Shown here: piece after piece, positions 43,592-62,120 of the stretch
Layout of the letters: each line of letters begins with the position of its first letter
Position numbering within the stretch: the stretch's first letter is position 1
From: Candidatus Vesicomyosocius sp. SY067_SCS001
GTDB lineage: Bacteria; Pseudomonadota; Gammaproteobacteria; PS1; Pseudothioglobaceae
Assembly (NCBI RefSeq): GCF_014706615.1
Contig: NZ_CP054877.1
Coordinates: forward strand, 1-64,000
DNA length: 64,000 nt
Direction: 5' to 3'
Program-made: the position numbers and the translations under genes
The notes under the pieces: generated by a model
Told to the model about the DNA's origin: nothing
The model's input: only the letters and a program-made list of their open reading frames with translations
Database searches by the model: none

Positions 43592-43667
43592 GCCGAAGTA
43601 GCATAGTTGGTAGTGCAACTGATTTGTAATCAGTAGGTCGCCAGTTCGAGTCCGGCCTTCGGCACCA
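43592..43667 (+). tRNA. tRNA-Thr (TGT anticodon)
   Basis: 76-base cloverleaf with encoded CCA. The acceptor stem GCCGAAG/CTTCGGC pairs fully. The anticodon arm ACTGA-TTTGTAA-TCAGT shows TGT, reading ACA codons. The T-arm is GCCAG-TTCGAGT-CCGGC. It stands alone between the ccoP operon and the lolA remnant. Confidence 0.97.
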
Positions 43668-43699
43668 TATTTACGAGTAGGATTACATATACATGTATG

Positions 43700-44212
43700 A
43701 TATTGTCGTAATTAGGTTGTTTTCTATTTTAAAATTGTTTGATTTAGTTTATTATTAAGACTAATAGTCTTTCAGCATGTTATTTTTAGGATAAAACTTA
43801 ATTAGTTAGTTTGTTGAGTTTTATACCAATTAATTTTATTTTTGTGTGTATATTAAGGTATGTGATTGCCATTGATAGGTCGATTAATAAACCAATATAA
43901 TGGAGTTTGTGTTAAGTTAGTTGTTGATATCAAACTAGCTTGTTCTAATTCAACATCAACTAGCCACAGTTTAGTATTGTTTAACAGTAGTATTTGCTTA
44001 TTTGGCACTAGTGTATGCCAAATTAGTTGTTGAAGGAGATTTAAATAATAATGTACCAAGAAGTTGGTTAATAGCGCATTTGTGTTGTTATAGGTGTGTT
44101 GTGTAAAGTTAGCACTTTAGATGTTCAAATGAGCCAAAAAATTAGAGAAATCATAGTTACTATTGGCAAAATTAGAAAATACAAATATTAAAGTGCTTAG
44201 AAATTTAGTCAT
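43700..44212 (-). pseudogene. lolA: Degraded outer-membrane lipoprotein chaperone lolA
   Basis: Directly downstream of ftsK, overlapping its stop, a frame starts at ATG 44212 with a signal-peptide-like MTKFLSTLIFVFSNFANS. It then reads FLAHLNI, a TAA stop (44117-44119), SANFTQHTYNN, and NNTKLWLVDVELEQAS with TPLYWFINRP. After another stop (43853-43855) the same frame still reads NKINWYKTQQTN and later ISLNNKLNQTILK, with more stops between. The order and wording match LolA, as does the ftsK-lolA neighbourhood. Nonsense mutations dominate, with no frameshift needed. LolA normally carries lipoproteins across the periplasm. The 3' limit is approximate. Confidence 0.75.
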
Positions 44213-46472
44213 TAGTAGTTGTAGGTTTAGGTGCTAATACTTGTCGATTTCCAGCGCTGTTCATACTGCTTACTATACCACTAATTTCCATATCTGCAAT
44301 AATAAGCGCTGCACGGTTGTAACTAATTTGCATACGGAGTTGTAGATTAGAAATTGAAGCACGTCGTGATAAGGTTACAATTTTAACAGCTTTATCATAT
44401 AAAACATCAAGCTTACCTGATATATTTGATATTTTATTTAATTTACTATGAGTGTGAAGAATACCATCTATATAATTAGTTTCATAGTTGTCTTTTAAAA
44501 AATTAACCACGCGTTCAATCTCACCATCGTCAACAAAAGCACCGTGCACGCGAATAAGATGTGACATACCTGGCGTCATATATAGCATGTCACCCATACC
44601 AAGTAATTGTTCAGCGCCACTTTGGTCAAGAATGGTGCGTGAATCAACTTTTGAAGAGACTTTGAAAGCAATACGTGTTGGTATATTAGATTTGATTAGA
44701 CCAGTAATAACATCTACACTTGGACGTTGTGTGGCAATAATAATGTGAATACCTGCAGCTCGTGATTTTTGTGTTAAACGTATAATAAGTGCCTCAACAC
44801 GTTTAGCCTTGGTACGATCTTCTTGGGCTAATGTGCTAAGCATATCAGCATATTCATCAATAACTATCATAATCATAGGCAATACCTCTAATTCAGTTGT
44901 TGCTTTACTTTCATTAGTAGTGTTTTGATTAAATAATGGATAAAGCAAAGGTTTTCCATTATCTTTAGATTTTTTTAGTTTTTTATTAAAGCCTTCAATA
45001 TGACGCACTCCAAATTTAGCTAATAATGAATAACGACGTTCCATTTCATTAACACACCAGCACAAGGCAGAAGCTGCTTGGTTCATATCTGTTACAACAG
45101 GTGTGAGCAAGTGTGGAATATCAGCATAACAAGCAAGTTCAACAATTTTAGGGTCAATCATAATAATACGTACTTCTTTTGGCTTAGCTTTGAAGAGTAC
45201 GCTTAGGATCATCGTATTTAGTCCAACTGATTTACCCATACCAGTTGCACCAGAAACGAGTAAGTGCGGCATTTTTGTTAGATTGGTAATAATTGGAATA
45301 CCGTTAATATCTTTACCTAAACCCATGGTTAAGACAGAATCAGATTTAATAAAATTTTCAGAAGAAAAAATTTCTTTAAGGTTGATTATTTCACGTTGTG
45401 TATTTGGGATTTCTAAGCCAATAACAGGTTTTCCAGGGATAATATCAACAATACGTACACTTTTAACTAATAAAGCACGTGCTAAGTCTTTATTAAGATT
45501 TATAATTTGACTAACTTTAATTCCAGGAGCAAGTGAAAGTTCAAATTGAGTTACGACAGGACCAGGGGTGACTTCAGTAACTAAAACATTAAAACCAAAA
45601 TCTTTAAGTTTCACTTCAACTTGGCGTGACATGTTTGCTAGTGTTTCTTTAGAGTACCCACTGGTGTTGATAGTTGGCTCATTAAGTAAGTTTAAATTCG
45701 GCAAACCAGTTATAGTTAACGTATTAAATAGATTGGAGGAAATAACTTTTTTAAAACTTTTTTTTGGTTTTTCCTTGCTTTTTTTTATTTGGTTACGTAT
45801 GTTAGTTTTAATACTTGATTGTTTAATTGGAGTAGAAATTTTTATAGCTTTTTTGGTTTTAACTTGTGTTCTAATATTACGTATTTTGCTAAAAAGATTA
45901 TTTAATATATTACTAGTAAAGGATAAAATATTAATCCATGAATAGCTACTAATAATACTAACACTAATCATTATAATACTGAGATAAATAATTAGTGATG
46001 CAGAACCAAATGCAACACTAAAATAACGATGCATACTAATGCCAATATAGCCGCCAGATGGTCCCATATCTGTAAAGTTTTGAACTAAAAATGCTGCACT
46101 AAAAGTAATTAGTGTCATTAGTGAAATAAAACGGATAGCAATTGTTAAGTATTTTGACTTCTTTTGTTCAGCATTTTTGTGGATTTTCCATCCTAACCAT
46201 ATCAGTGAGACTGGTATTAAATAAGCACTATAACCTAAATTAGATAAAGATATATCACTTAAATATGCACCAAATACACCAGCAAGGTTAGTAACTGGTG
46301 CAATTAGAGCAACGTTACCTGACCAAGGGTTTTCATTAGCAGAGTAGGTAACTAAGGCGGATAAAAAAATAAGACCTATGGTACTTAAAAAGATAAATAG
46401 TATTTCACTGGCTATTTTAGTACGAGGTTTTTCTGGGTATCTTTTTGTACTTATTTTTTTATTCTTTTTCAA
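44205..46472 (-). CDS. ftsK: DNA translocase FtsK, compact form
   Basis: Division-linked DNA pump that clears and aligns chromosomes at the septum. 755 residues against 1329 in E. coli: the N-terminal membrane domain (about four segments) is present, but the long Pro/Gln linker is replaced by a short Lys-rich one. The motor has Walker A GATGMGKS at residues 408-415 and Walker B-like MIMIVIDEYADML. The C-terminal gamma domain (ISNLQLRMQISYNRAALIIA), which reads KOPS sites, is retained. The start is TTG at 46472: a stop lies two codons upstream and there is no nearby ATG in frame. Confidence 0.95.
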   Translation of the reverse strand: MKKNKKISTKRYPEKPRTKIASEILFIFLSTIGLIFLSALVTYSANENPWSGNVALIAPVTNLAGVFGAYLSDISLSNLGYSAYLIPVSLIWLGWKIHKNAEQKKSKYLTIAIRFISLMTLITFSAAFLVQNFTDMGPSGGYIGISMHRYFSVAFGSASLIIYLSIIMISVSIISSYSWINILSFTSNILNNLFSKIRNIRTQVKTKKAIKISTPIKQSSIKTNIRNQIKKSKEKPKKSFKKVISSNLFNTLTITGLPNLNLLNEPTINTSGYSKETLANMSRQVEVKLKDFGFNVLVTEVTPGPVVTQFELSLAPGIKVSQIINLNKDLARALLVKSVRIVDIIPGKPVIGLEIPNTQREIINLKEIFSSENFIKSDSVLTMGLGKDINGIPIITNLTKMPHLLVSGATGMGKSVGLNTMILSVLFKAKPKEVRIIMIDPKIVELACYADIPHLLTPVVTDMNQAASALCWCVNEMERRYSLLAKFGVRHIEGFNKKLKKSKDNGKPLLYPLFNQNTTNESKATTELEVLPMIMIVIDEYADMLSTLAQEDRTKAKRVEALIIRLTQKSRAAGIHIIIATQRPSVDVITGLIKSNIPTRIAFKVSSKVDSRTILDQSGAEQLLGMGDMLYMTPGMSHLIRVHGAFVDDGEIERVVNFLKDNYETNYIDGILHTHSKLNKISNISGKLDVLYDKAVKIVTLSRRASISNLQLRMQISYNRAALIIADMEISGIVSSMNSAGNRQVLAPKPTTTND

Positions 46473-50416: not shown

Positions 50417-51340
50417 ATGTCTAAGGTGTTTATTGTTTTTATCTTTTTATTTTTAAGTTCTTGTGTTAGTGAAACAGTACAAACTATTATTGGTACAACC
50501 ATGGGTACTGATTATAGTATCAAAGTTTTGAACACTCAAATCTCAAAGTTAATTATTGATAAACGTCTTAATGAGATTGAGAAAATATTTTCCACTTGGG
50601 ATGAAAATTCCGAGCTTTCAAAATTAAACAGAGCGCCAATTAATCAATGGATAAAAGTATCAGATGAGTTGTTTTTTGTTTTACTCCAAGCAAAAGAAAT
50701 ATATAAGCAAACTCAGGGTTTTTTTGATCCTGGTATAGGTCGTTTAATTGATGTTTGGGGTTTTGGTGTTATTAAGACACAGGTAAAACCTAATAAGGAA
50801 AAGATAGATAAAGCACTAGCAATATCATCTATTGAGTATGTACATTTAGACGATTTACGAGTTAAAAAGCTTAAAGATATTTATATTAATTTATCTGCTA
50901 TTGCTAAGGGTTATAGTGTAGATATTGTGGCAAATATGCTAATTCAGCAAGGACTTAAAAATTTTATAGTGGAAATTGGTGGTGAAGTAATGGCTCAAGG
51001 TCAGTGGACAATTGGTATTGAAAAGCCAAATAATAGCATGCCAATTGCTATTGAGTTGCAAAATTTAGCTATTGCTACTTCAGGAGATTATCGTAATTAT
51101 CTTGTTTGGCAAGAAAAAAAATATCAACATATTTTAAATCCCAATACAGGATTACCTGCTAATACTGATCTAAGTTCTGTTAGCGTAATTCATAATAGCG
51201 CGATGATGGCAGATGCTTATGCAACTGCTATGATGGCAATGGGTAGTCAAAAAGCTAGAATATTAGCACAACAACTTAACTTATCAGTGGTGTTTATTTT
51301 GAATCAGTGGTACAATTTTGAAGTACTACAAATTCATTAA
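50417..51340 (+). CDS. apbE: FAD:protein FMN transferase (ApbE)
   Basis: Attaches FMN covalently to periplasmic subunits such as RnfG or NqrC. 307 residues with a lipoprotein signal (FIFLFLSSCVSE, lipobox Cys near residue 16), GTTMGTDYSIK, INLSAIAKGYSVD, LNPNTGLPA and the metal/FAD site MMADAYATAMMAMG. Rnf/Nqr genes are not adjacent. If it is a true lipoprotein it depends on the Lol system, of which lolA looks broken here; inner-membrane retention would avoid that need. Confidence 0.93.
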   Translation: MSKVFIVFIFLFLSSCVSETVQTIIGTTMGTDYSIKVLNTQISKLIIDKRLNEIEKIFSTWDENSELSKLNRAPINQWIKVSDELFFVLLQAKEIYKQTQGFFDPGIGRLIDVWGFGVIKTQVKPNKEKIDKALAISSIEYVHLDDLRVKKLKDIYINLSAIAKGYSVDIVANMLIQQGLKNFIVEIGGEVMAQGQWTIGIEKPNNSMPIAIELQNLAIATSGDYRNYLVWQEKKYQHILNPNTGLPANTDLSSVSVIHNSAMMADAYATAMMAMGSQKARILAQQLNLSVVFILNQWYNFEVLQIH

Positions 51341-61505: not shown

Positions 61506-62120
61506 TTATTTCAGCTTTTTAATCTCAGCCTTGGGGCGAGTTTTTATGTAATCAAATAATTTAATAACTTTGTAAACACCTCTGGCTTTAGCGGCAGTTT
61601 TGGCGGCCATATCAGCCTCTCGTTTAGTTACGGCTCCCATAAGATAAACTACCTGATCTTCCGTCATCACCTGAACGTGAGTTGGATGAAATACCTCTTG
61701 ATTCTGAAATAGGAATTCAACCTGTATAGTGATGGTTGAATCTTTAGCTCTACTAAGTAGTCCATTTGAAGGGCTTAATTTAATTTCATTAAATATTTTT
61801 GAAATTTTTGGTACTTGAAGTTGTGCTTGTTTACTTGCATAAATACGTATCTTAGGTGTTTCTACTTCTCCAGTAATTAGTACTGTTTTGTTATAAACCA
61901 TGAAATTAAGATGTGCATTGTTTAATGTTAAATCTTTTCTAGACCAGTTAAATAACCTTAGAGTAATGGTTTTATCATCTAACACTTCTCCAGCACTACG
62001 TCTGTCATTACTTATTGAGATAATTGAGCTAACAGTTGAAACACCTTGAATAGCTGATACACAAGCTGTTAGAAGTAAGAAGTTTGTCATTAGAAGTGTC
62101 GATAGAACGAATTTTTTCAT
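61506..62120 (-). CDS. BON-domain lipoprotein, DolP (YraP)-like
   Basis: 204 residues with a lipoprotein signal (LLMTNFLLLTACVS, lipobox Cys near 20) and two BON domains, the second ending in YLMGAVTKREADMAAKTAAK and YKVIKLFDYI. This matches DolP/YraP, an outer-membrane lipoprotein for envelope integrity. It is divergent from rsmI; in E. coli rsmI-yraN-diaA-dolP are neighbours, so yraN and diaA appear lost. How such a lipoprotein reaches the outer membrane is unclear if lolA is broken. Confidence 0.85.
   Translation of the reverse strand: MKKFVLSTLLMTNFLLLTACVSAIQGVSTVSSIISISNDRRSAGEVLDDKTITLRLFNWSRKDLTLNNAHLNFMVYNKTVLITGEVETPKIRIYASKQAQLQVPKISKIFNEIKLSPSNGLLSRAKDSTITIQVEFLFQNQEVFHPTHVQVMTEDQVVYLMGAVTKREADMAAKTAAKARGVYKVIKLFDYIKTRPKAEIKKLK

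Follow-up and report, generated by a model that had tools for sequence, protein, structure and literature searches.

A lolA pseudogene next to intact ftsK in Candidatus Vesicomyosocius, and the probable loss of the LolA-LolB shuttle with the lipoprotein export pump retained

The lolA remnant downstream of ftsK

The window is the whole stretch of DNA that was analysed, 64,000 nucleotides from Candidatus Vesicomyosocius sp. SY067_SCS001, which is very probably a clam symbiont with vertical transmission and whose genome (G000 below) is a single contig of 1,032,764 bp. At the locus under study, an intact ftsK is followed on the same strand by the remnant of a lolA gene, and a tRNA-Thr gene lies just past the truncated end of the remnant (Table 1). 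The lolA frame opens with an ATG at 44212-44210, on top of the ftsK stop codon at 44205-44207, as an earlier note made from the sequence alone had stated, and the layout is the same in relatives with an intact gene. The place directly after ftsK is the ancestral place of lolA, the order is identical in E. coli, and ftsK is open in all 12 genomes of the genus.

Table 1. Coordinates of the lolA locus and of two putative lipoprotein genes in the window
Feature	Position	Strand	Remarks
lolA pseudogene	43724..44212	-	remnant matched over 43730-44212; relatives' LolA profile, stops, indels, dN/dS
first lolA stop, TAA, codon 32	44117..44119	-	within a stretch shifted out of frame
second lolA stop, TAA, codon 120	43853..43855	-	point change compared with intact relatives
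ftsK, intact	44205..46472	-	end overlaps the lolA start, same in intact relatives
tRNA-Thr (TGT)	43592..43667	+	just past the truncated lolA 3' end
ApbE-family protein, putative lipoprotein	50417..51340	+	lipobox-like LSSC; PF02424, E 2.6e-81
DolP-like BON-domain protein, putative outer-membrane lipoprotein	61506..62120	-	lipobox-like LTAC; PF04972

In-frame stops occur at codons 32, 120, 137, and 147 of the matched part, and further stops at codons 163 and 167 lie at or beyond the lost 3' end. The earlier note was right about both of the stops that it named and about the presence of later ones, but not in placing most of the LolA fold in one reading frame. Compared with the intact lolA of the sister genome G002, the remnant carries six 1-base indels, which form three compensating pairs, located in part within short A/T runs, and leave three stretches out of frame, one per pair. 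An in-frame 3-base deletion was also found, and about 27 C-terminal codons are missing. At codons 120 and 137, the stop arose by a C-to-T change compared with G002, while the stop at codon 32 falls inside the first shifted stretch and thus stems from an indel instead of a point mutation. At 43668-43724, the 3' end of lolA is deleted to close to the tRNA-Thr gene. A tRNA sequence likewise lies close behind the lolA remnant of the sister genome G009, and none was seen in the downstream translations of G001 and G002.

PF03548 matched the remnant with 26 bits (E 4e-6) and with a stop inside the match, and a profile built from the LolA of 18 relatives matched it with 182 bits (E 3.7e-54), with four stops read through. 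This was the single match in the whole genome. No second lolA was found with PF03548 and the relatives' profile in the single contig, which has a completeness of 99.99, and the suggestion that another LolA copy exists is unsupported. The remnant is like LolA (PF03548, TIGR00547) in its sequence and in the ftsK-lolA order, but there is no open gene with a complete fold, and due to the stops, the indels, and the lost C-terminus it was filed as a lolA pseudogene and not as LolA. The dN/dS of lolA was 0.80 for the pair of G002 and G000 and 0.30 for the pair of G002 and G001, compared with 0.15 in both pairs for 15 other genes, concatenated. These values bear out the description of the pseudogene as recent. 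The remnant is a real dead gene adjoining an intact ftsK, as the earlier note had proposed.

Sequencing or assembly errors in a lolA that is really intact would match the six 1-base indels, as such indels are a common long-read error. The point stops, the lost 3' end, and the dN/dS of 0.80 argue against this, and other lolA lesions are present in the sisters G001 and G009, with ftsK open next door and the completeness given above, which makes error extremely improbable. Expression of the broken gene by slippage of the polymerase or ribosome together with stop readthrough is scarcely credible either: the compensating indel pairs, partly in A/T runs, would suit slippage, but decoding would have to get past two point stops and two stops in the shifted stretches, and even then the C-terminus would be missing. 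With the stops, the indels, the lost 3' end, and the high dN/dS taken together, it is very unlikely that the stops are tolerated, as had been considered before.

Order of loss in the sister genomes and retained export genes

Four sister genomes of about 1.0 Mb (G000, G001, G002, and G009) were compared within the genus. A full-length lolA occurred in nine of the twelve genus genomes, the exceptions being G000, G001, and G009, and G002 is the sister of about 1.0 Mb in which the gene is intact. In G001 (1,022,154 bp), the lolA frame is split by one 4-base deletion that neither G000 nor G009 has. The lolA of G009 is a remnant with three stops. None of the lesions of G000 and G009 was found in G001, while one 1-base indel may be common to G000 and G009. 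Comparison with related symbionts, which the earlier note had proposed, has yielded both an intact sister gene and two copies broken by other lesions.

The lolB gene, with neighbours that we take to be hemA-like and tol-like from gene order and sequence, is open in eight of the twelve genomes (the LolB of G004 was confirmed by Pfam) and a stop-riddled remnant in all four of about 1.0 Mb. A 6-base deletion and two 1-base insertions recur in all four remnants, from which the lipobox Cys codon is missing as well, though not through one identical change. The shared lesions indicate that lolB died in the common ancestor of these four genomes, and since lolB is dead in all four and lolA is intact in G002, lolB was lost before lolA.

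In the tree of the four sisters, eight of eleven tested orders were not rejected at 0.05, in a test whose replicates the program flagged as too few, and one of these orders joins the three genomes with a dead lolA. As the sister order is unsettled, the count of lolA losses rests on the lesions, which suggest at least two and probably three events. A single origin of the losses was considered and set aside; it is allowed by the tree, but the lesions of G001 and those of G000 and G009 do not overlap.

The genes of the export pump are retained in the window genome, where open genes for LolF (TIGR02212, 406.5 bits) and LolD (TIGR02211, 309.4 bits) lie side by side. A search of the whole genome for lolA, lolB, and the pump, also proposed in the earlier note, found lolA only as a wreck, lolB as a wreck, and LolD-LolF intact. 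Pairwise dN/dS among the four sisters ranged from 0.11 to 0.21 for LolF, from 0.09 to 0.20 for LolD, and from 0.14 to 0.20 for BamD, and as judged from these ratios, LolD-LolF and BamD remain under purifying selection. The lipobox-like Cys of BamD was present in eight out of eight genomes read. The two lipoprotein candidates of the window, ApbE and the DolP-like protein, had been named before as probable lipoproteins that are still encoded, and both have lipobox-like starts, while the DolP-like protein scored 118.8 bits against NF008247, below the cut-off of 184. The DNA read from this genome also encodes BamE and an M23 peptidase, each with a lipobox-like start; together, these give a partial inventory of its lipoproteins. 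In its gene content, the window genome would match LolAB-independent trafficking, with no functional LolA, no functional LolB, an intact LolDF, and lipobox lipoproteins still encoded.

On contig C1 of the window genome, fragmented tol-like genes were observed near 706-708 kb (L083) and near 496-497 kb (L127). The fragmented genes are presumably tolQ and tolA in G000 and, in G002, tolQ, tolR, and tolA. Neither of these two genomes showed an open tolB or pal, while G001 and G009 keep tol-like genes and genes at the pal position open. The protein at the pal position of G001 and G009 carries a lipobox although lolA is dead in both, and that of G001 matches OmpA.

These observations bear on the possibility that sorting to the outer membrane has been abandoned altogether, with lipoproteins including BamD staying in the inner membrane and LolDF serving another substrate or being on its way to loss. 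The fragmented tol-like genes of G000 and G002, together with the lack of an open tolB or pal seen there, are in line with a shedding of envelope genes, and a broader role has been proposed for the leftover LolCD of Buchnera in the available part of PMC3246468. However, the low dN/dS of LolF, LolD, and BamD (0.09-0.21), the persistence of lipobox-like starts, and the open frame for a lipobox protein that two genomes with a dead lolA keep at the pal position stand against it, and we consider it rather doubtful. The earlier note had named the giving up of lipoprotein sorting as one option, and this appears to be only half right: the LolA-LolB shuttle is lost, LolB having gone earlier, but LolD-LolF, BamD, BamE, the DolP-like protein, and ApbE are kept. 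Its overall interpretation is partly supported, and what was given up is probably the shuttle, with lipoprotein export kept. The lolB wreck, the stepwise loss among the sisters, and the free-living relatives that have neither protein do not figure in the note.

Shuttle genes and the LolF docking motif across the family

The survey covered 83 genomes of the family, of which 49 have a completeness of at least 90% and a contamination of no more than 5%. Among these 49, LolA was not visibly broken in 35, a wreck in three (G000, G001, and G009), and not found in 11, all of which belong to genus g5. For LolB, 32 genomes showed no visible break and four a wreck, and it was not found in 13, comprising the same 11 genomes of g5 and the drafts G050 and G081 of about 520 and 80 contigs, respectively. 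A LolCE match occurred in all 49, some of them as fragments, and a BamD match likewise in all 49, although it was weak and below the cut-off in G022 and split over contigs in G016. All 14 genomes of this set without an unbroken LolA were also without an unbroken LolB, while LolA occurred without LolB in three of 35 (G002, G050, and G081). This distribution fits an order in which LolB is lost first and LolA second.

Genus g5 holds two finished genomes that we take to be those of cultured, free-living strains, Ca. Thioglobus singularis PS1 (1,714,148 bp) and strain NP1 (1,689,404 bp). LolA and LolB were not found in either genome, while LolF, a lipobox-bearing BamD, and a LolD-like ATPase are kept; LolF was assigned by family and LolD only as the adjacent LolD-like frame. 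With LolA and LolB absent, LolDF present, and the lipobox of BamD retained, their gene content would also match LolAB-independent trafficking. That free-living strains keep a lipobox-bearing BamD and LolF without the shuttle speaks further against abandoned sorting. No lolA was found downstream of ftsK among the open frames of the readable loci of g5 (the flanks are unreadable in G016 and G042 and only 544 and 321 bases long in G041 and G029). The genomes of genera g7 and g11 are 86-87% complete, and those of g5 besides PS1 and NP1 are in several contigs. The genome G061 (1,512,449 bp), which we take to be that of strain EF1, is LolA-bearing. The monophyly of g5, g7, and g11 was also considered and is not settled by the FtsK or LolF trees.

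A LolA-like gene was observed in G041 (L169, 2752-3420, contig C38), the only such match in genus g5. It sits among genes that we take to be ketosynthase-, acyl-carrier-, and acyltransferase-like, in what presumably resembles an aryl-polyene cluster. The gene was not counted as LolA, as it scored 32 bits with the relatives' profile and thus less than the 60.8 bits with Pfam.

In the available text of PMC10865981, LolC of E. coli is described to recruit LolA via the Hook (residues 167-179), aided by the Pad residues 163, 181, and 182. In an alignment with E. coli LolC, the sequence P-...-GIQ-P-RFKRF, with minor variation, is seen in the LolF of genomes that have LolA, and this motif falls on the C-terminal side of the Hook and over Pad residues 181-182. 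PRFKRF is also present in three solved LolF sequences, which suggests that it is the older state. The pattern [RK]FK[RK]F occurred in 41 of 41 LolA-bearing genomes and in none of the 29 LolA-lacking ones (26 of g5, two of g7, and one of g11), a count in which the motif was picked after seeing the alignment and the related genomes are not independent trials. A single deep loss may be common to g5, g7, and g11, in which case few independent events would underlie the contrast. For this count, 76 of the 83 genomes were usable; the seven left out had no LolCE match (G024, G031, G045, and G068), only a weak hit, to a longer permease (G020), or a split or fragmented one (G054 and G076), and the 41 include three with partial lolA matches only (G014, G049, and G053).

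Among the genomes with a broken lolA, G000 and G001 keep the motif, while G009 and G060, in which lolA is heavily decayed, show an R-to-S change. The incomplete genomes G074 and G079, in which LolB was found and LolA was not, keep the motif as well, and we predict that their LolA is merely missing from the assemblies. The genome G060 (1.1 Mb, genus g8) carries its own lolA wreck right after ftsK (L168, contig C45) together with the changed LolF Pad. No LolB match was found in G060.

To rank the excess divergence of the Hook window, 46 LolF sequences were compared in sliding stretches of 17 residues. The Hook window ranked 4 in g5, 2 in g7, and 2 in g11 out of 395, moderately in G060 (20), and unremarkably in G009 (214), G000 (331), and G001 (335). 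Two Hook prolines persist in 28 and 29 of the 29 LolA-lacking genomes, respectively, and the stretch between them in g5 is new and fairly uniform, reading P-x-x-N-x-x-G-x-L-x-P.

The retained prolines and the uniform new sequence of g5 could reflect a new partner, such as a periplasmic chaperone unrelated to LolA (in the clam, a protein supplied by the host) that replaced LolA and docks on the altered Hook; searches based on LolA would miss a protein of this kind. We regard such a replacement as quite unlikely, as the pump loci of PS1 and NP1 hold lolF, then only a LolD-like open frame, and then a gene on the opposite strand, the Hook of LolF is unchanged in G000 and G001, and the free-living relatives have no host to supply a replacement protein.

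Possible route of lipoprotein export and comparison with known systems

The reading that we prefer, at a probability of roughly 0.7, is that the dead lolA marks a late step in the dismantling of the LolA-LolB shuttle, with the pump and its cargo kept and export presumably carried out by LolDF only. LolB, the acceptor on the membrane side, was lost first, in the ancestor of the four genomes of about 1.0 Mb, and the LolA chaperone was then broken in three of the four descendants. LolDF would still lift lipoproteins from the inner membrane, and these would reach the outer membrane without LolA and LolB, comparable to the alternate route of engineered E. coli, for which LolCDE is all that is required. 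To judge from the relatives, the same state would be old in the free-living genus, where the Pad motif of LolF that docks LolA would have been lost. The window genome would stand at the start of this path, with lolA dead and the docking motif of LolF still ancestral.

A wider reading, which has slightly better than even odds in our view, extends this to the family (Thioglobaceae by its named members). Export would repeatedly have become LolDF-only, by the loss of LolB, then LolA, and then the Pad, with one long-standing lineage that includes free-living members; the shuttle would be dispensable and the sequence of LolF would reveal the status of LolA.

A LolA/LolB-independent lipoprotein route in engineered E. 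coli was reportedly described by Grabowicz and Silhavy in 2017. According to the available text of PMC10865981, E. coli cannot do without LolA, antibacterial research is targeting the Lol pathway, an alternate route delivers lipoproteins without LolA and LolB, and LolCDE is needed for all routes; the LolA/LolB-independent route is described there only for cells that lack both. The genomes studied here appear to be like this engineered case, as presented in the available parts of PMC10865981 and PMC11784454, in that LolA and LolB are missing, the pump is kept, and outer-membrane lipoproteins are encoded. They differ from it in that the state is natural and stepwise, involves LolF instead of LolC plus LolE, and also occurs in free-living strains.

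The available text of PMC3246468 reports that Buchnera BAp and BSg keep LolC and LolD, with lolE a pseudogene and LolA and LolB absent. Like the Buchnera described there, the window genome is that of an endosymbiont in which a Lol pump is left over and the shuttle is gone; it differs in that the order of loss is visible, the pump is complete, the lipobox Cys of BamD is kept, and the state is shared with free-living relatives. Caulobacter is described as LolB-less with a bifunctional LolA (Smith et al. 2023, cited in the available part of PMC11784454). By their gene content, G002 and possibly the drafts G050 and G081 would be like Caulobacter in having LolA without LolB, but LolA is also broken in G000, which therefore differs from the bifunctional-LolA case as described there.

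In the literature library searched, judged mostly from its listings, we came across no account of LolA or LolB being lost in vesicomyid symbionts or Thioglobus. The term "lol" is absent from the main texts of PMC3202245 and PMC2642828, and the sole "lol" displayed from PMC7826175 is an author name in the reference list.

On its own, the pseudogene would be ordinary endosymbiont decay. Together with the lolB wreck, the staged sisters, the free-living relatives without LolA and LolB, and the eroded LolF motif, it makes a good natural test case for LolA-independent export. The genomes represent successive stages of shuttle loss and include cultured free-living strains that allow a direct test, a short LolF motif tracks the presence of LolA (41/41 versus 0/29), and the supposedly essential LolA-LolB route may be dispensable in nature.

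The absence of LolA is uncommon in Gammaproteobacteria. PF03548 matched in 356 of 377 sampled gammaproteobacterial genomes, a count in which broken copies such as those of G000 and G001 are included as matches, and ten of the 20 listed misses were genomes of 1.3 Mb or less.

A full-score LolCE match, above the cut-off, occurred at most once per genome, in 74 of the 83 family genomes, and corresponds to LolF. The species that tolerate the loss of lnt are those with LolDF, according to the available part of PMC11784454. The family's lipoproteins may be naturally diacylated. Lnt was considered as the missing piece and rejected as the cause, as it passes in two of 83 genomes whatever the LolA state. 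The two genomes with Lnt above the cut-off are G012 and G058, while G006 carries a near-complete lnt with a stop and G005 carries lnt fragments.
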